From positions 1,471,501 to 1,535,500 of the forward strand of contig NZ_CP072648.1 of assembly GCF_018304825.1 (NCBI RefSeq): 64,000 nt of DNA, given 5' to 3'. This stretch comes from Chloracidobacterium validum. GTDB taxonomy: Bacteria > Acidobacteriota > Blastocatellia > Chloracidobacteriales > Chloracidobacteriaceae. The position numbers and the translations under genes are program-made. The notes beneath the pieces were generated by a model. It searched no databases, was not told where the DNA came from, and saw nothing but the letters and a program-made list of their open reading frames with translations. Positions 11,266 to 20,763 of this stretch are shown here, piece by piece; the stretch's first letter is position 1; each line of letters opens with the position of its first letter.

Positions 11266-13764
11266 TCACCTTGGGCGCGGCTGACCATCATCGCCAATTT
11301 CAGGAAAAGCATGCTTGGGATAACGCCGGGCAAGTTGCGGGCGCAGCTCGCGGTACGCCCGCTTCCAAAACCCACCGAGATCGGTCGTTACCTGTATGGG
11401 GCGACGATTCGGCGCGAGTAGGTGCAATGTCAACGGCATCCGTCCGCCAGCGATGCGCGGCGTTTCAACCAACCCGAAGAAATCTTGAATCGGGGCGGCA
11501 ACATACGGCAACTGTCCATCCGTGGGATACACAATGGACGTTCGGCGGCGGCCAAACGGCAGGCTCTCCGGCGCAAGCCGGTCAAGTTGCTGGCGCTGTG
11601 CCGGCGTCAGTTGCATCAGCAAGTGCTCGGCTAAACCGCGGGCCAGCAAAACGCGCCTGACCTCTTCCACCGTCCTGCACCCCAGACACAGGGTTGCGGC
11701 GGCAGCCCAGACCGCATCATCGGTGAACGGCTTGAGTCCAGCTTCAGGAACTTGTGCAGCAACAAAGGCCAGCCGGGCTTGAAGGCGCTCCAGTGCCCGC
11801 CCGATGGCGTCGGCTTGCCGAGCATCGGCGCGCAGATGTTCAACCAAAAGCCGAGCGGCCGTTTCCGGCTCAACGGTTGGCAGGACTTGCTCCTCAAGCA
11901 GGACGCCATCATACCGCAGGCGGCGGCGCCGGACGATCCGCCCGTCGGCGCGAAGCTCATGGGTGTCCGTTTCTTCAATCGCGTCAAAAAACAGCTCCAA
12001 CAACCAATCGGATTCAATGCGGCTGGCGAGGCGAATGAGCGTCGTTCCATCGGCTTGGGTTTCGGCATCCAGCGCCAGCGCGAGTTCGGCAGTCGTGACG
12101 ACACTTGACGGCGCAAGTCGGGCTTGTCCACCGCTCGGCAAGACCATCTCACGTTCGCCCTCCACGCGGCGACGCAACCGCCCAACGCGATCTGGGAAAG
12201 CTACCAGCAGGCAGCGTTCCAGCAATGTGTCCCGGTCGGACTGAGCCGGGCGGTCCGACCTCGGCAGCGGTGGTAGTCGCCGCGCCAGTCCCACGAGCTG
12301 CCGTTCGGCGCGGCGCACCCGGGCGACGGTTGCCGGGTCATTGGCCGTTTCAAAGGTGTCCAACAACGCCAAGACATCAGACTCCCCGTACCCGCCCTGC
12401 GGTGTTGGCGCGGCGCGGACATCACGCTCCCCAAGCAAGGCGGCAACCCGGCAGGCTTCCGCCTCGATGCCGTAGCGTTTGCCCTCCACAATTAGGCGCG
12501 CCAAGCGGGGCGTCGTCGGCAACGCCAGCATGGCGCGGCCGATGGGCGTTAGCGCATTCCCTTCGAGCGCCCCAAGCCGATGCAACACCTGCTCCGCCAG
12601 GCCAAGCGCGGCTTCACCCGGCGACTCAAACCATGGAAACGCCGGCCAATCGTGGACGCCGGCCGCCCGTAGCTCCAAAACAGCTTCGGCCAAATCCGTC
12701 CGGTGAATTTCCGGTGTCTCGAAAGCCGGCCGCAAGTTGAAATCCGCTTCGGTGTAAAGCCGTAGGCAATGCCCTGGCCGCGTCCGGCCCGCCCGTCCGG
12801 CTCGCTGGACGGCCGAAGCTTGCGCGACACGACCAGTCGTCGCCTGGGGAAAGCCGGTCCAGGGCGAATGCTCAACCCGCCGAACCAGACCGGAATCAAT
12901 GACGACGGCGATGTTTTCAATCGTAATGGCCGACTCGGCCACGTTTGTCGCCAACACCACCTTGCGGCGCGCGCTGGGCTGCGTGGCGGCATCTTGTTCT
13001 GCCGCCGGCAACGCGGCATGAAGCGCATGCAGCGCCAAATCATGACGCGCTGCCACCGGCGCGCAGGCGCGCAAGCCGGCCCGAATGTCGGCCATCCCCG
13101 GCAGGAAAACCAGCATGTCACCATCTGAGGTCTCCCGCGCAAAGCGTTCGACGGCGGCCGCGACGCGGTGGGACAGTGGTGCGGAGCTTTCCGCTGGGGC
13201 GTGCTCGATGACAACCGGAAACGTCCGACCGGGCACGGCAATCACCGGCGCCTGGTCGAGGAAGGCCGCCACGCGCTCGGCGTCCAGCGTCGCCGACATC
13301 ACGACGAGCTTCAAGTCAGGCCGTGACTGAAGCTGTAACTGGCGAATGCGTGCCAGTGCTAGGTCGGTTGACAAGTGGCGCTCGTGAAACTCGTCAATGA
13401 CCACCAAGCCCGTTCCACGCAAGGTCGGATCAGCGAGCAGACGCCGTGTCAGCAGCCCATCCGTGACAAAGCGCAACCGCGTCGCCGGGCCGGTTCGGTC
13501 GTCGAAGCGCACCGTGTAACCGATGGTCTGGCCGACAGTTTCACCTCGCGCCTGGGCAACGAAGCGGGCCGCCATCCGAGCCGCCAGGCGACGCGGCACG
13601 ACCACGACGATGTCGCCCGCCCCGGCGAGGCCAGCCTCCAGAAAGGCGGCCGGGGCGCGCGTCGTTTTTCCTGCGCCGGGAGCCGCTTGCAAGACAAGCC
13701 GACCGGCCGCGCGCAGGGTTTCCACGATGGTTGGCAGGTAAGCCTCAATCGGAAGCAAGCTCAC
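11266..13764 (-). CDS. hrpB: ATP-dependent RNA helicase HrpB
   Basis: This 832-residue DEAH-box helicase has Walker A APGAGKTT (28-35), the box DEFH (124-127) in place of DEAH, and SAT in VVMSATLDAERV. Motif VI lies in VAQASAVQRAGRAGRTRPG. The C-terminal half has the HrpB-specific region ending in YRELRPQLARRYPKHAFPE, close to the usual C-terminus (about 830 residues), which separates HrpB from HrpA. HrpB function is poorly defined in bacteria; RNA remodelling is likely. It is a single gene, convergent with the ubiB-like gene. Confidence 0.95.
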   Translation of the reverse strand: MSLLPIEAYLPTIVETLRAAGRLVLQAAPGAGKTTRAPAAFLEAGLAGAGDIVVVVPRRLAARMAARFVAQARGETVGQTIGYTVRFDDRTGPATRLRFVTDGLLTRRLLADPTLRGTGLVVIDEFHERHLSTDLALARIRQLQLQSRPDLKLVVMSATLDAERVAAFLDQAPVIAVPGRTFPVVIEHAPAESSAPLSHRVAAAVERFARETSDGDMLVFLPGMADIRAGLRACAPVAARHDLALHALHAALPAAEQDAATQPSARRKVVLATNVAESAITIENIAVVIDSGLVRRVEHSPWTGFPQATTGRVAQASAVQRAGRAGRTRPGHCLRLYTEADFNLRPAFETPEIHRTDLAEAVLELRAAGVHDWPAFPWFESPGEAALGLAEQVLHRLGALEGNALTPIGRAMLALPTTPRLARLIVEGKRYGIEAEACRVAALLGERDVRAAPTPQGGYGESDVLALLDTFETANDPATVARVRRAERQLVGLARRLPPLPRSDRPAQSDRDTLLERCLLVAFPDRVGRLRRRVEGEREMVLPSGGQARLAPSSVVTTAELALALDAETQADGTTLIRLASRIESDWLLELFFDAIEETDTHELRADGRIVRRRRLRYDGVLLEEQVLPTVEPETAARLLVEHLRADARQADAIGRALERLQARLAFVAAQVPEAGLKPFTDDAVWAAAATLCLGCRTVEEVRRVLLARGLAEHLLMQLTPAQRQQLDRLAPESLPFGRRRTSIVYPTDGQLPYVAAPIQDFFGLVETPRIAGGRMPLTLHLLAPNRRPIQVTTDLGGFWKRAYRELRPQLARRYPKHAFPEIGDDGQPRPR

Positions 13765-13881
13765 GGGCAGGGATTGTCACCTCGTTATGGATGCATCTCC
13801 CGCTTTCGGCCGGCATCGTTTCCGGCTATTGTCCGCAGATGCATCACACCTGATTCCATCACTGGAGAGCGTTTGTCGTCC

Positions 13882-16086
13882 ATGTACAGAAAACTCATCG
13901 CCGGAGGCTTGGCGCTTGCCTTGTCTTCCGGTTGGCTCATTGCCCCCACGCGGGCAGAAGAAGGCATGTGGCTGCCGGATACGGTCAGCACCCTCCCGCT
14001 CGCCAAAATGCGCGCCAAAGGGTTTACCCTCAAGCCCGAAGATATTTACAACCCCAACGGGCCAAGCCTCAAGGATGCGATTGTCATCATTGACGGCGGC
14101 ACTGGCGAGTTTGTCTCACCGGAGGGGCTTGTGCTCACCAACCATCACGTTGCGTTTGACGGCATCGCCAGTCTGAGCACGCCGGAAAAAGACTACGTCG
14201 CCAACGGCTTCGTGGCCAAAAATCGGTCGGAAGAACTGCCGACACCAGGCTACACCGTCCAGGTGCTCGACATCATCAAGGATGTCACCTCGGAAATCCT
14301 CGCCGGCGTGACGCCCGACATGCCGGCGGCCGAGCGGGAAAAACAAATCGCTGCCAATCGCAAAAAGGTCGTTGACGCCCAGGCACAACCAAATCGCCAG
14401 GCCCAGGTCGTCGAGATGAACAGCGGCCTGCAATTTTACCTCTATGTCTATGACGTGTTCCCGGATGTGCGGATGGTCTATGCCCCACCCAAGGACATCG
14501 GCTACTACGGCGGCGACCCGGACAACTTCGAGTGGCCGCGCCACTGTGGAGATTTCACCTTTTTCCGAGTCTATGCCAACAAGGACAACCGTCCGGCGGC
14601 TTACGCCAAGGACAACGTTCCCTATCGTCCGAAGAAGCATCTGACCATTTCGATGTCTGGCTACAAGGAAGGCGACTTCACGATGGTGATGGGCTACCCC
14701 GGACGGACGAACCGTTACCGTGAAGCCTCGTCCGTCGAAACCAATGAGCGCATTCAGATTCCGCTGTTGATTGACTTCTTTTCCGGTCAGATTGCGGCGC
14801 TGGAAGAAGCGGCCAAAGCCGACCGCAAGACGGCATTGGCCCTGGCGTCGCAGATTTTTGGTCTGAGCAACTCACTCAAAGCCTACCAGGGCGCGCAGCG
14901 GACGCTGCGCCGGGTGCAGTTCCTCGAACGCCGTCGCAAGGAGGAGGCCGCGCTGGCGCAATTCATTGCCAGTACCCCAGATAACCAGGCCAAGTACGGC
15001 ACTGTCATTTCGCAGTTGACCACGCTCAACGAGGAATATCGTCCATTTGTGGCAACGGACTTTCTGTTGCCACGGATACCCGGCTTCGTCAGTCAAGTCG
15101 CCGGCGTCGCCAATCTCGCTGTTGCCCGTGCCGTGGACGCCGAAAAGCCAGCCGGTGAGCGAAATGCCCAGTTGGAAGCTCAGGCCAATCGGGTCAAAGC
15201 CTTTGTCCCGACACTCTTCCGGGAGCGCAACCTAGCGCTCGAACGACAACGGCTGGTCGCGCTCTTCGAGTTGGCCGACAAGCAGCCGCAAGGCGCGCGC
15301 GTCGCGTTTCTCGACAAACAGTTTGAAGGCAAAACCGGCGACGCACGCGCGGCTGCCCAACGGGAACTCGCCCAGCGCATCATCGAGTCGCCCTACTACG
15401 ACACGCCAGGGCGGCTTCAAGTGCTGTTTGAGCTGTCGGCAGCGCAGATCAAAAGCCTCGATGACCCAGGCCTCAACTTCTTGCTCGCGCTCGCGCCAGA
15501 GGCGGAGGCGTCCCGCAAGCGCGGCGAACGCTACAACACGGAAGTCAGCCCCCTGCGCGCGCGCTACATTGCGGCACTGGCCGCCAGTCGCGGCAATCAA
15601 CCGTTCTACCCAGACGCCAACCGGACGCTGCGGTTTACCTACGGCGAGGTCAAGGGCTACACGCCCAAGGATGGGGCGACGTATCGCTACTACACGACGC
15701 TCTTCGGCGTTGTCGAAAAGGATCGTGGCGTTGATCCATTCGCCGCGCCCAAGGCCGTCATTGACTTGCACCGGCGGAAAGACCACGGGCGCTATGCTGA
15801 ACCCCGTTTCGGCGACGTGCCCGTGAATTTCCTCTCGACCAATGACATCATTGGCGGTAATTCGGGAAGCCCGATTCTCAACGGGCGGGGTGAGATCATC
15901 GGCGTCGTCTTCGATGGGAACTTTGAAGGGCTGGGCAATGACTTTCTCTATGACTACGACGCGCAACGGACGATTAGCGTGGATATCCGCTATGTGCTGT
16001 TTTTGACCGAGAAAATGGCCGGCGCGGATTACCTGTTCAAGGAAATGACGTTCGCCCCGGCAAGCAACGCCGCGCCGCGCCGGTAA
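13882..16086 (+). CDS. Exported S46 family serine peptidase (dipeptidyl-peptidase 7/11 type)
   Basis: This is a 734-residue protein from the ATG at 13882. A signal peptide covers residues 1-25 (GGLALALSSGWLIAPTRA). The S46 hallmarks are present: MWLPDTV near the mature N-terminus, the catalytic His in LTNHHVAFDG (residues about 85-94), the Asp block GGDPDNFEWPRH, and the Ser in IIGGNSGSPILNGRGEI. S46 enzymes remove dipeptides from oligopeptides in the periplasm and help asaccharolytic or heterotrophic growth on protein. The gene is followed by another serine peptidase gene (S55), 57 bp downstream. Confidence 0.95.
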   Translation: MYRKLIAGGLALALSSGWLIAPTRAEEGMWLPDTVSTLPLAKMRAKGFTLKPEDIYNPNGPSLKDAIVIIDGGTGEFVSPEGLVLTNHHVAFDGIASLSTPEKDYVANGFVAKNRSEELPTPGYTVQVLDIIKDVTSEILAGVTPDMPAAEREKQIAANRKKVVDAQAQPNRQAQVVEMNSGLQFYLYVYDVFPDVRMVYAPPKDIGYYGGDPDNFEWPRHCGDFTFFRVYANKDNRPAAYAKDNVPYRPKKHLTISMSGYKEGDFTMVMGYPGRTNRYREASSVETNERIQIPLLIDFFSGQIAALEEAAKADRKTALALASQIFGLSNSLKAYQGAQRTLRRVQFLERRRKEEAALAQFIASTPDNQAKYGTVISQLTTLNEEYRPFVATDFLLPRIPGFVSQVAGVANLAVARAVDAEKPAGERNAQLEAQANRVKAFVPTLFRERNLALERQRLVALFELADKQPQGARVAFLDKQFEGKTGDARAAAQRELAQRIIESPYYDTPGRLQVLFELSAAQIKSLDDPGLNFLLALAPEAEASRKRGERYNTEVSPLRARYIAALAASRGNQPFYPDANRTLRFTYGEVKGYTPKDGATYRYYTTLFGVVEKDRGVDPFAAPKAVIDLHRRKDHGRYAEPRFGDVPVNFLSTNDIIGGNSGSPILNGRGEIIGVVFDGNFEGLGNDFLYDYDAQRTISVDIRYVLFLTEKMAGADYLFKEMTFAPASNAAPRR

Positions 16087-16143: not shown

Positions 16144-18027
16144 ATGATGATGAGGCGTACCGTGTGGCAGGGACTGTGTTGGTTGGTCTATGTCGTCCTG
16201 ACCGGCGGCCTTGGACTGGGGCATGAATCTGGTCGCGGAACGCCCGTAGCGCACAACGCGGTGACGGACGCGACCCGCTCCGCGTTGCGCATCACGGCCG
16301 ATGATCCGCGTTTCTTTCCCCTCTCGGCCATTCGTCCCGGACTGGTGGGCGTTGGCCGGACGGTGTTTCAAGGCGACCGCGTCGAGGAATTTGGCGTTGA
16401 AGTGCTTGGGATTTTACCCGGCACGCCTAACCCCAAACAGTCGTTTGTCGTCGCGCGCCTGACCGGCTCAAACGTCGAACGAACGCTGGTCTTTGCCGGC
16501 ATGAGCGGCAGTCCGGTCTTTATCGAGGGCAAGCTGGTTGGGGCAGTATCAGCGGCCTTTGCCTTTGCCAAGGAGCCGATTGCCCTCATCATGCCGATCG
16601 CCCACATGATTGAAGTGTTTGCCGAAAGCGACCAACCATCGCTGGCGCGGCAAACGAATCCCAATGCGCCAATTCCGGTTGACGCGGCGGCAGCGGCCCA
16701 TCTGCCTGGACTGCGCGACGTTTGGCGGGACGGTGGGGCTTTTCTACCGATTGCGACGCCGCTGGCCGCGGCTGGATTCCCGATGGATGTGCTGACTCCC
16801 TTCAGCCCGACCTTCGAGCGGATGGGATTCCGCGTGGTCAGTGGCGGCAGCGCCCCGGCCCAGCCGGCGGCGCTGGGTTCCATTACGCCGGAAACCCTTG
16901 CCCCAGGGCGTACGGTATCCGTTGACCTCATGCGTGGCGATTTCGGCCTGAGCGCATCCGGGACGGTGACTTGGCGCGAGGGCGATGACATTCTGGCCTT
17001 TGGCCATCCCTTCTTCAGTCCGGGCGGGATTGGTGGCGTCAGTTTCCCGATGTCAGAAGGTGAGGTCGTGACGGTCATTCCCAACGTCGGCAACTCCTTC
17101 AAGTTGACGGTTCCCAAAGCCCCGGTCGGCGCGATGACCCAGGATCGGTCGGCCGCTATCCGTGGGCGACTCGGCGTTGCGGCCCCGATGATTCCCGTGA
17201 CGGTCGAAGTCAAAAGTGCCTTGGGCGCGGCGCGGCGGTATCACTTTGAAATTGTCGAAGATGCCTTCCTCTCGCCCATTCTGGCGAACATCGGCGTTGC
17301 CGCCAGCCTGACGACGACCGAACGGAGCATTGGCGAAGCGACACTCCGCGCGGAGGGCCGAATTGAGCTGGACGGCGCCGCGCCCATTCGCTTTGCCCGC
17401 TCGATTGCGTCAAATTTCAGTCCGGCGACCGGCGTCGGCATCAGCGTGGCACAACCCCTGGCGACGCTGCTCAACAGTGGACTTGCCCAGGGCAAAGTGC
17501 GCGCCATTCATGTCACCGTGACGGCGCGTGACGCACGCCTCAATGCGGCGCTTGAAGGTCTATGGGCGGATCGGCTGCGGGTGCAACGGGGTGAGACCAT
17601 CCACTTGACCCTCCTGGCGCGCAATGCTTCGGGTCAGACCCTGGTCGAGCGCGTTGCGGTGACCATTCCGGCGGATGCCCGGCCCGGCCCGGTTACGCTG
17701 CTGGTTGGCGATGGGCGCGCCATGGACACGCTCGACCCGATGAGCATTGGAAACGCCCAAACCCTCGGACAACTCGCGGCGGCGCTCAATCGCCTGCATC
17801 GGCCGGATCGGCTGTACGTTCGGCTGTATCGCAGTGAATCCGGGGCCGTCATCGGCGATGAAGCCATGCCGGCGCTCCCGGCATCCTACTTGGCGACGGT
17901 GAGCAGCTCACGCATCCGCACGGAAGGGCGCGCGCTGACGACCCTGACGCTCCTGAAACAGGAACTCCCCCCTGGCGAATGTGATGTGAGCGGTCGCCAG
18001 CAGCTCGACCTTGAAATCTTGCCGTAG
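16144..18027 (+). CDS. Exported SpoIVB-type (S55) serine peptidase domain protein
   Basis: This is a 627-residue protein. The start is ATG 16144 (the first of three consecutive ATGs), five bases after GGAGG; an upstream in-frame ATG at 16129 is possible. A hydrophobic signal follows (GLCWLVYVVLTGGLGL). The S55 domain reads IRPGLVGVGRTVFQG, then FAGMSGSPVFIEGKLVGAV, with the likely catalytic Ser in GMSGSP. IALIMPIAHMIEVF and GDDILAFGHPFFSPGG match the later conserved blocks of SpoIVB-domain proteins. In sporulating Firmicutes SpoIVB signals across the forespore membrane; in non-sporulators such as Acidobacteriota its relatives are secreted proteins of unknown substrate. The second half is beta-rich and unassigned. 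Confidence 0.85.
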   Translation: MMMRRTVWQGLCWLVYVVLTGGLGLGHESGRGTPVAHNAVTDATRSALRITADDPRFFPLSAIRPGLVGVGRTVFQGDRVEEFGVEVLGILPGTPNPKQSFVVARLTGSNVERTLVFAGMSGSPVFIEGKLVGAVSAAFAFAKEPIALIMPIAHMIEVFAESDQPSLARQTNPNAPIPVDAAAAAHLPGLRDVWRDGGAFLPIATPLAAAGFPMDVLTPFSPTFERMGFRVVSGGSAPAQPAALGSITPETLAPGRTVSVDLMRGDFGLSASGTVTWREGDDILAFGHPFFSPGGIGGVSFPMSEGEVVTVIPNVGNSFKLTVPKAPVGAMTQDRSAAIRGRLGVAAPMIPVTVEVKSALGAARRYHFEIVEDAFLSPILANIGVAASLTTTERSIGEATLRAEGRIELDGAAPIRFARSIASNFSPATGVGISVAQPLATLLNSGLAQGKVRAIHVTVTARDARLNAALEGLWADRLRVQRGETIHLTLLARNASGQTLVERVAVTIPADARPGPVTLLVGDGRAMDTLDPMSIGNAQTLGQLAAALNRLHRPDRLYVRLYRSESGAVIGDEAMPALPASYLATVSSSRIRTEGRALTTLTLLKQELPPGECDVSGRQQLDLEILP

Positions 18028-18098
18028 CCATCCTGGCGCGCTGCGTGGGTTCCCGCCCTTGGGGAGGCGCACCAAAACTGATACGGAGGAAACCATCG

Positions 18099-20763
18099 GT
18101 GTCCACGGCAGCGACTCCGATGATGCGCCAATACCTGGCCATCAAGTCTCAGCACCCCGGCACGCTGCTTTTTTTTCCGGCTGGGCGATTTTTATGAACT
18201 GTTCTTTGACGACGCGCACATCGCGTCCCGGGAACTCGACCTTACGCTCACGGCCCGTCACAAGGACACCGCGCAGCCCGTTCCGATGTGTGGCGTGCCG
18301 CATCATGCGGCGGCCGGCTACATCGCGCGGTTGGTCGAGCGCGGATACCGCGTCGCCATTTGTGATCAAACCGAAGAAGCCACCGGCAAGACCAAGCTCG
18401 TCGAGCGCGCCGTCGTGCGCATCGTCACGCCCGGCACATCCATCGAAGACCAACTCCTGACCGGGGCTGAAAATCGCTTTTTGGCCGCCGTGGCCGGGAG
18501 CGCCCAAACCACGGCCGTGGCCTTTCTCGATGTCACGACGGGCGAGTTTTCCGTGACCGAAATCCGTGGGGACGGTCACTTGGCGTCGGGCCTGAATCTG
18601 CTGGAGCGACTGGCGCCGCGCGAAGTTCTCGCACCACAGTCCTTTGCCCCGTTGCTGGCCCCGGCCTTTCCAGCGCCCCCGTCCGATGACGCAGCCACGC
18701 GCCATCGGGACGCTCAGCCCCCGCGCTTTTCGGCAGTCCTCACGCTGGCCGAAGACTGGCGGTTCGCGGTGGACGCCGGCCAGGCGTTGCTCCTCAACCA
18801 TTTCGGCGTCTCGTCACTGGCCGGCTTTGGTCTGGAAGGAAAAAGTCACGCAATCGGCGTAGCCGCGGCGGTTTTGCGATACGTCCGCGAAACGCAGATG
18901 AATGATGCGCGTCATGTGACGAGTATTACCTGGTTTGAAACGACTGCGACACTTGAGCTGGACACGCTGACGCTCAAAAACCTTGAAGTCGTCGAAGGAA
19001 CGGCCGGTGGCAAGCATGATTCGCTGTTTGCCACGCTTGACGCGACCGTGACCAACATGGGTGGACGCCTGCTCAGGCAGTGGCTTCTGCGGCCGTCACT
19101 TGAGTTGCCGGTTATCGAAGCGCGTCTGGATGCGGTCACTGAGCTGCATCAGAACCCAATGCGGCGCGATGCCTTCCGGCAACGGCTACGGGCGATTCAG
19201 GACATCGAGCGATTGGTTGGACGCCTTTCACTCAACGTTGCCACGCCACGGGATGTCGCGGCGCTGCGCGCAAGCTGCGCCCACCTTCCGGCCCTCAAGC
19301 AACAGCTTCTGGAATGCTCGGCTTCGCTCCTGCTGACGCTTGGCGAATCGCTCGATGCATGCGCTGACCTGCGCGAACGCATCGAGGCGACCATCGTTGA
19401 AACGCCGCCGATCAAAATAGATGAGGGGCAAGTGATTCGGGCCGGCTTCAACGCCGAACTCGATGAGCTGCGCCACATACGGCACGACGCCAGCGGAGCG
19501 ATGGCGTCCATCGAACAGCGTGAGCGCACGCGCACCGGGATTGCTTCGCTCAAGATTCGTTTCAACAACGTCTTTGGCTACTACATCGAGGTCACGAAAG
19601 CGAATCTCAAGCACGTTCCGGCCGACTATGAGCGCAAGCAAACCATCGCCAATGGTGAACGCTACACGACGCCGGAACTCAAGCAGCTCGAAGCGCGACT
19701 GCGCGACGCCGAACTGCGGCTGATTGCGCTTGAGACCCAGATTTTTCAGGAACTGCGCGCCTTTCTCGTCGAACATGCGCCACGCCTCCAGGCGGCGGCG
19801 CGCGTCGTTGGACTGCTTGACGCGCTGGCCAGCCTGGCCGAGGTTGCTGCCCAGCGGCGCTACGTTCGCCCGGAACTGCACGCCGATGACGAACTGCTGG
19901 TTGAAGATGGACGGCATCCGGTTGTTGAAACCAACGTCGCCCGGTTCGTTCCCAACGATGTGCGCCTGAACAACTCGACCGACCGGCTGCTCATCATCAC
20001 GGGACCGAACATGGGCGGCAAGAGCGTGTATCTGCGCCAGGTTGGTCTCATCGTGTTGATGGCGCACATTGGCTCGTTCGTTCCGGCTCGACGGGCGCGC
20101 ATTCCGCTGGTGGATCGCATCTTCACCCGGATTGGAGCTGCCGACAACGTGGCCCGTGGGCGCTCGACCTTCATGGTCGAGATGACCGAAACCGCCTACA
20201 TCTTGAACACCGCAACGCCGCGCAGTCTGGTTTTGCTCGATGAGATTGGACGCGGAACCTCGACCTTCGATGGGCTGTCGCTGGCTTGGGCGGTGTGCGA
20301 ATACCTCCACGACGACGCGCGGCACTCGGCCAAGACGCTCTTTGCCACGCACTATCACGAGCTTGTTGAACTGGCGCGCGTCCTGCCCGGTGTCTGCAAC
20401 GTGCAGTTGGCCGTTTCTGAACAAGCCGGCGACATTGTTTTCCTGCACCGTGTCATTCCGGGCAGTGCCAGCAAGTCCTACGGGATTGAGGTTGGGCGAC
20501 TGGCCGGACTCCCCGCGTCGGTGATTCAGCGCGCCCGCGAAATTTTGAATAACCTCGAAGCCAATGAACTCGACGTGCTCGGCAAGCCGAAACTGGCGCG
20601 GCACCTGCCATCCCGCCGGGGCAAAGCGCACCGTGACCAGCCAACCCTGTTTGAAGCGGTCAATGAAACCGTGATTGAAGAACTGCGGGCGTTGGATATT
20701 GGCGAGCTGACGCCGGAGATGGCGCTCCTGGTCCTGCGTCGCTTGCGGGAGCGGCTCATGTAG
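18099..20763 (+). CDS. mutS: DNA mismatch repair protein MutS, interrupted by a frameshift
   Basis: The gene needs a frameshift to be read. It starts at GTG 18099 (AGGA eight bases upstream) as VSTAATPMMRQYLAIKSQHP, then GTLLFF. At a run of eight T (18169-18176) the frame is lost; the first frame stops at 18195. With seven T the reading continues as RLGDFYELFFDDAH into the frame open to 20763 (887 residues in all). The Phe-x-Glu mismatch reader (FYE) lies just after the slip. Downstream blocks are intact: VTKANLKHVPADYERKQ, Walker A GPNMGGKS, DEIGRGTSTFDGLS. MutS starts mismatch repair by binding mispairs. The rest of the gene is intact, so the frameshift is either recent, a slippage site, or a sequencing error. 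No mutL is in view. Confidence 0.93.

Follow-up and report, generated by a model that had tools for sequence, protein, structure and literature searches.

An extra base at a run of eight T splits mutS in the deposited genome of Chloracidobacterium validum and is probably a consensus error

The window analysed here, a stretch of 64,000 nucleotides of the Chloracidobacterium validum genome (contig NZ_CP072648.1, positions 1,471,501 to 1,535,500), carries mutS on its forward strand, and positions given below without a contig label count from its first letter. The gene opens with a GTG (18099–18101) nine bases downstream of GGAGG (18085–18089), the likely ribosome binding site, and AGGA or GAGG stands 5′ of the start in relatives. 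From this start, a 5′ piece of 32 codons (18099–18197) runs to a TGA at 18195–18197 and matches the Pfam profile MutS_I at positions 1–26 (E = 2.6e-6). The remainder of the gene (18178–20763) lies in another frame, extends over 861 codons with no internal stop (18178–20760) to a stop codon at 20761–20763, and matches MutS_I at 22–112 followed by MutS_II, III, IV and V. Domains I to V are present in order, across two pieces, and a profile search of the whole genome likewise returned MutS_I as two adjoining pieces. No single open reading frame spans the whole gene and takes in the Phe-x-Glu motif, the mismatch reader of MutS; the frame changes at a run of eight T (18169–18176), as judged from the letters and from alignment with genus relatives. 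No other mononucleotide run in mutS (18099–20763) reaches six bases, and this one falls within the first 26 positions of domain I, 5′ of the mismatch reader and of every other domain; the Phe-Tyr-Glu codons stand just 3′ of it in the downstream frame (18190–18198), in a motif, GDFYE, that also occurs in a relative. A preliminary description had reported the GTG start with its ribosome binding site, the loss of frame at the run and a Phe-x-Glu right after it, all of which the letters and open reading frames bear out; the 820 residues that it gave for the part after the run are to be replaced by 861 codons, 825 being the length from the first ATG at 18286. Scans of 17950–18300 for consensus promoters and terminators found none.

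The longest open reading frame with a start codon that remains in the mutS frame encodes 825 amino acids (18286–20763), matches MutS_I at 58–112 only and omits the mismatch reader. Because this first start leaves out Phe-x-Glu, plain initiation on the deposited mutS would yield no active MutS. A restart of translation with the reader retained was ruled out, since ATG 18286 is the first in-frame ATG, GTG or TTG, and a second MutS1 as a back-up was ruled out by the single locus that PF01624 has in the genome (3,659,143 bases in two contigs). MutL_C lies in an open frame of 671 codons and, with that frame open and no second MutS1 found, loss of mutS would matter. These features would suit a genuine and recent null allele, in which a replication slip in the T run made the sequenced clone of strain BV2-C a mismatch-repair mutator that was fixed or was drifting in culture or in the mat: the only run of its length in the gene lies 5′ of the reader, the first remaining start leaves the reader out, and the profile search showed no other MutS1. 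Real mutS null alleles do rise in nature, which counts against an error in the record, and we regard this reading as possible, if rather less than probable. A second match to MutS_V (C1:227013–227555) lies in a frame of 836 codons that gave no match to MutS_I and probably encodes MutS2. Upstream in the window, an open reading frame of 903 amino acids (13375–16086) encodes what we take from its motifs to be a secreted S46-type dipeptidyl peptidase; over approximately its first 125 residues the match to the related genome G001 is weak and lies in a different frame, and the true start is therefore probably downstream of the one called.

In all six of the six other genomes of the genus, the mutS frame is intact at the aligned site, and MutS_I spans positions 1–112 in open frames of 890–914 codons. 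The longest T run at the aligned place is five or six in each of them, after C or G; the codon before the Phe codons is CTC, CTG or TTG in these relatives versus CTT in the window, and the continuous T run of the window stems from that synonymous change. The preliminary description had held that seven T would rejoin the two pieces, and seven T do restore the frame, but this is not the sole one-base reading, as a surplus C after an in-frame run of eight T fits the mutS frame equally well. The surplus base may be T or C because the second Phe codon, which precedes CGN, is TTC in some relatives and TTT in others (TTC CGG and TTT CGG both occur, and G005 has TTT CGT); a surplus T seems likelier, solely owing to the long run.

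To place the run in a wider context, 116 other mutS loci were read on both strands, comprising the six from the genus, 30 from the class among the matches listed and the best 80 of at least 579 relatives; at least 149 of 162 class genomes match MutS_I by profile search. Seven of these 116 genes, a set that is non-random and biased to intact genes because the class and wider members were ranked by similarity, carry T7 or T8 within the 27 bases that lead up to Gly-Asp-Phe-Tyr-Glu, and all seven are in frame, reading Leu/Ile-Leu-Phe-Phe-Arg; the class member L177, for example, has CTG CTT TTT TTC CGG. In the long open reading frames of a 1.2-Mb sample of the C. validum genome, CTT makes up 13.7% of Leu codons and TTT 54.9% of Phe codons. 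Judged from these sequences, a conserved T-rich motif and codon choice best account for the run, which is ordinary in itself; selection against A/T runs is described, in a survey of 108 bacterial genomes, as apparent once they reach nine bases in a large share of these genomes (PMC1088944). Profile matches also place MutS_I in two frames in G070 (C10:58377–58708) and G072 (C94:40130–40457), both of genus g34 and two of eight class genomes with weaker best MutS_I matches that were inspected again. Their split lies near profile position 50, elsewhere than the T run, with a TAA in the first piece of G072 and an A5 run near the split position in the g34 relative L171; these splits could be errors or a recurrent break.

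The preliminary description had offered three options, namely a read error, a natural mutator allele and a slippage switch acting through DNA or RNA polymerase; the first two stand, with the error favoured, and the switch found no positive support. As a DNA-level switch, slippage between tract lengths would toggle mismatch repair within a population and make the mutation rate heritable and reversible. Eight T in mutS do form a slippable tract, and one study proposes mononucleotide and trinucleotide repeats in mutS or mutL of more than 100 species as such switches (PMC2955026), with coding homopolymers of MSH6 and MSH3 said to toggle in tumours (PMC11250277). However, the tract is not conserved in position: the comparison of tract length with relatives that the preliminary description had proposed returned T5–T6 rather than T8 in six of six other genus genomes, and T7–T8 elsewhere reflects codon choice, with all seven genes in frame. 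Neither a mixture of tract lengths nor a revertant nor another strain of the species came to light. We therefore consider a switch of this kind very unlikely.

Slippage in expression is, in our judgement, more improbable still. Here some full-length MutS would arise from the deposited sequence because RNA polymerase omits a U or because the ribosome shifts +1 from UUU to UUC, where Phe-tRNA could re-pair. Sites of programmed transcriptional realignment frequently consist of at least eight identical bases (PMC3711429), and in Buchnera longer homopolymers show more deletions of one base, but the repair needed at this locus is an RNA deletion, which the source for Buchnera reports as rare in E. 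coli homopolymers (PMC5574713). A minus-one ribosomal slip would go in the wrong direction. RNA structure after the T run did not exceed chance (z = 0.05), which together with the lack of conservation of the run in the genus speaks against this route. Conserved or programmed frameshifting was ruled out on the same two grounds, namely genus relatives without the run and no RNA fold that stands out. A frame transition and slippery run conserved together in homologues, as transcriptional slippage would leave them, were not found, the seven T7–T8 genes among the 116 mutS genes being in frame.

Any real lesion would have to be recent. For the 580–581 codons that follow the run, the window and the six relatives differ with a dN/dS of 0.091–0.142, and values among the relatives are 0.101–0.144 except for the nearly identical pair G001–G006 (0.045). 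Against G001, all 861 codons give 0.119, the 74th percentile of 449 gene pairs with a median of 0.082. Comparison with the six relatives thus gave no sign of decay or relaxed selection in mutS after the run, and no second lesion was found in the 861 codons. Since mutS is without relaxed selection, a long-standing mutator is unlikely, which weighs against the null allele in its older forms; the lack of relaxed selection is explained as well by a consensus error.

A mutator would be expected to give an excess of homopolymer frame breaks, and a consensus prone to errors would look alike. When genes of G001 (1.6 Mb) were compared with 1.2 Mb of the C. validum genome (447 genes, 187,665 residues, of which only 13 relative genes fall inside the window), 18 candidate frame breaks emerged, and all 18 were aligned as DNA. 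In two of them, evenly conserved coding sequence has clearly gained a single base: the T8 of mutS and a T7 at C1:1545771–1545777 (locus L017), about 10 kb past the window, which has one T beyond the frame in a gene that, by its look, is presumably glycosyltransferase-like and whose relative in G001 is unbroken there. The other 16, sorted by eye, sit where genes start or end, in rRNA (which we assigned by look) or elsewhere outside coding DNA, or in diverged stretches broken by multiple gaps; two is a count of clear breaks and no ceiling, because stretches of this last sort (for example, C1:1607158, 2346165, 1625454, 1596572 and 2218945) were left unclassed. The reverse comparison, of 519 genes, yielded seven candidates, all aligned, with one clear break in G001; this one, at G001 C1:2291270, is a one-base loss towards the 3′ end of the counterpart of a 329-codon open reading frame in the C. 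validum genome.

Breaks like the two clear ones in C. validum can result either from errors in a long-read consensus or from loss of mismatch repair. For the null allele, a second gene with an extra T in a T run is what loss of mismatch repair would also give, but apart from this gene and mutS no clear break of one base showed up in the 447 genes, and consensus errors account for that as well. Against an error, the assembly appears generally clean (two clear breaks in 447 genes versus one in 519 for G001). Moreover, 40 coding runs of at least seven bases, nine of them with eight or more and 31 with seven, fall within matches that keep the frame at an identity of 60% or above, in a set made without a coverage limit and so not identical to the 447-gene set; set against them are two broken runs, one in each length class. 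The assembly thus handles most runs of this kind correctly, a point against an error. One study further reports that errors at long runs are mainly deletions and not surplus bases, but in nanopore assemblies (PMC12007338).

The explanation that we nevertheless regard as probable is that the deposited consensus has the length of a homopolymer wrong and that mutS is most likely ordinary and intact in the living strain. The codons for Leu-Leu-Phe-Phe-Arg in that intact gene would happen to be T-rich, and the consensus would have gained one base there, a surplus base that would be absent from the DNA of the cell. For an error count the six of six genus genomes in frame at this site, the absence of decay or a second lesion in the rest of mutS and the fact that both clear breaks consist of one extra T in a T run. 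C. validum was described from strain BV2-C (PMC12816986), and the published account of that strain's genome names PacBio Sequel sequencing with assembly by Canu 1.8 and Circlator and leaves polishing unmentioned (PMC8245765); we infer that the genome of the window is that of BV2-C, and the sequencing method hangs on that match. With the strain so assigned, the locus combines a one-base difference at a run, intact near relatives and a long-read-only assembly, the pattern of a homopolymer error. Where homology confirms a frame break in a single genome, PMC3711429 expects a sequencing error and not a genuine indel. As a whole, the evidence fits an assembly error, which we favour, or a recent natural mutator allele, without separating the two, and the weights attached here to the four readings are a matter of judgement, reached without calculation.

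What follows for users of the genome differs with the reading. Should the surplus base be an error, an intact mutS lies concealed behind the record, which then gives no ground for calling the strain deficient in mismatch repair; should the allele be real, the strain of C. validum that was sequenced would be a mutator through loss of mismatch repair, a point of importance for its culture and for genome comparison. Among the papers listed for Chloracidobacterium and mutS, none concerns a Chloracidobacterium genome by its title and no account of this frame break came up, and the main text of the species description does not contain the word mutS (PMC12816986).

Several known systems resemble this locus in part. 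The singletons of the GeneTack survey (PMC3711429) share with it a break confirmed by homology in one genome with near relatives intact, whereas here the T8 lies in a gene whose loss itself raises the mutation rate. In Vibrio splendidus, a small frameshift left as a scar in mutS would give a mutator, as it would here, but that system has a mobile element in mutS acting as a switch and measured hypermutation (PMC5296598), whereas the lesion described above is known from sequence alone. The Salmonella mutL and mutS switches likewise place a slippable repeat inside a mismatch-repair gene, and the same work, with tests in Salmonella, proposed mutS and mutL repeats including mononucleotide runs of six or more as spontaneous mutability switches (PMC2955026); those switches involve a three-copy 6-bp repeat in mutL and others in tested strains, in contrast to a mononucleotide run that is unconserved in its genus. 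A switch at C. validum mutS, even if real, would be a further case of a kind already proposed. In colorectal cancer, MSH6 and MSH3 are MutS homologues in which slippage at a coding homopolymer of eight breaks the frame, as at this run, but there frameshift and reversion are reported in subclones (PMC11250277), whereas here there is one consensus; a true switch would be the bacterial counterpart of these tumour toggles in a hot-spring phototroph, although nothing found here requires it.
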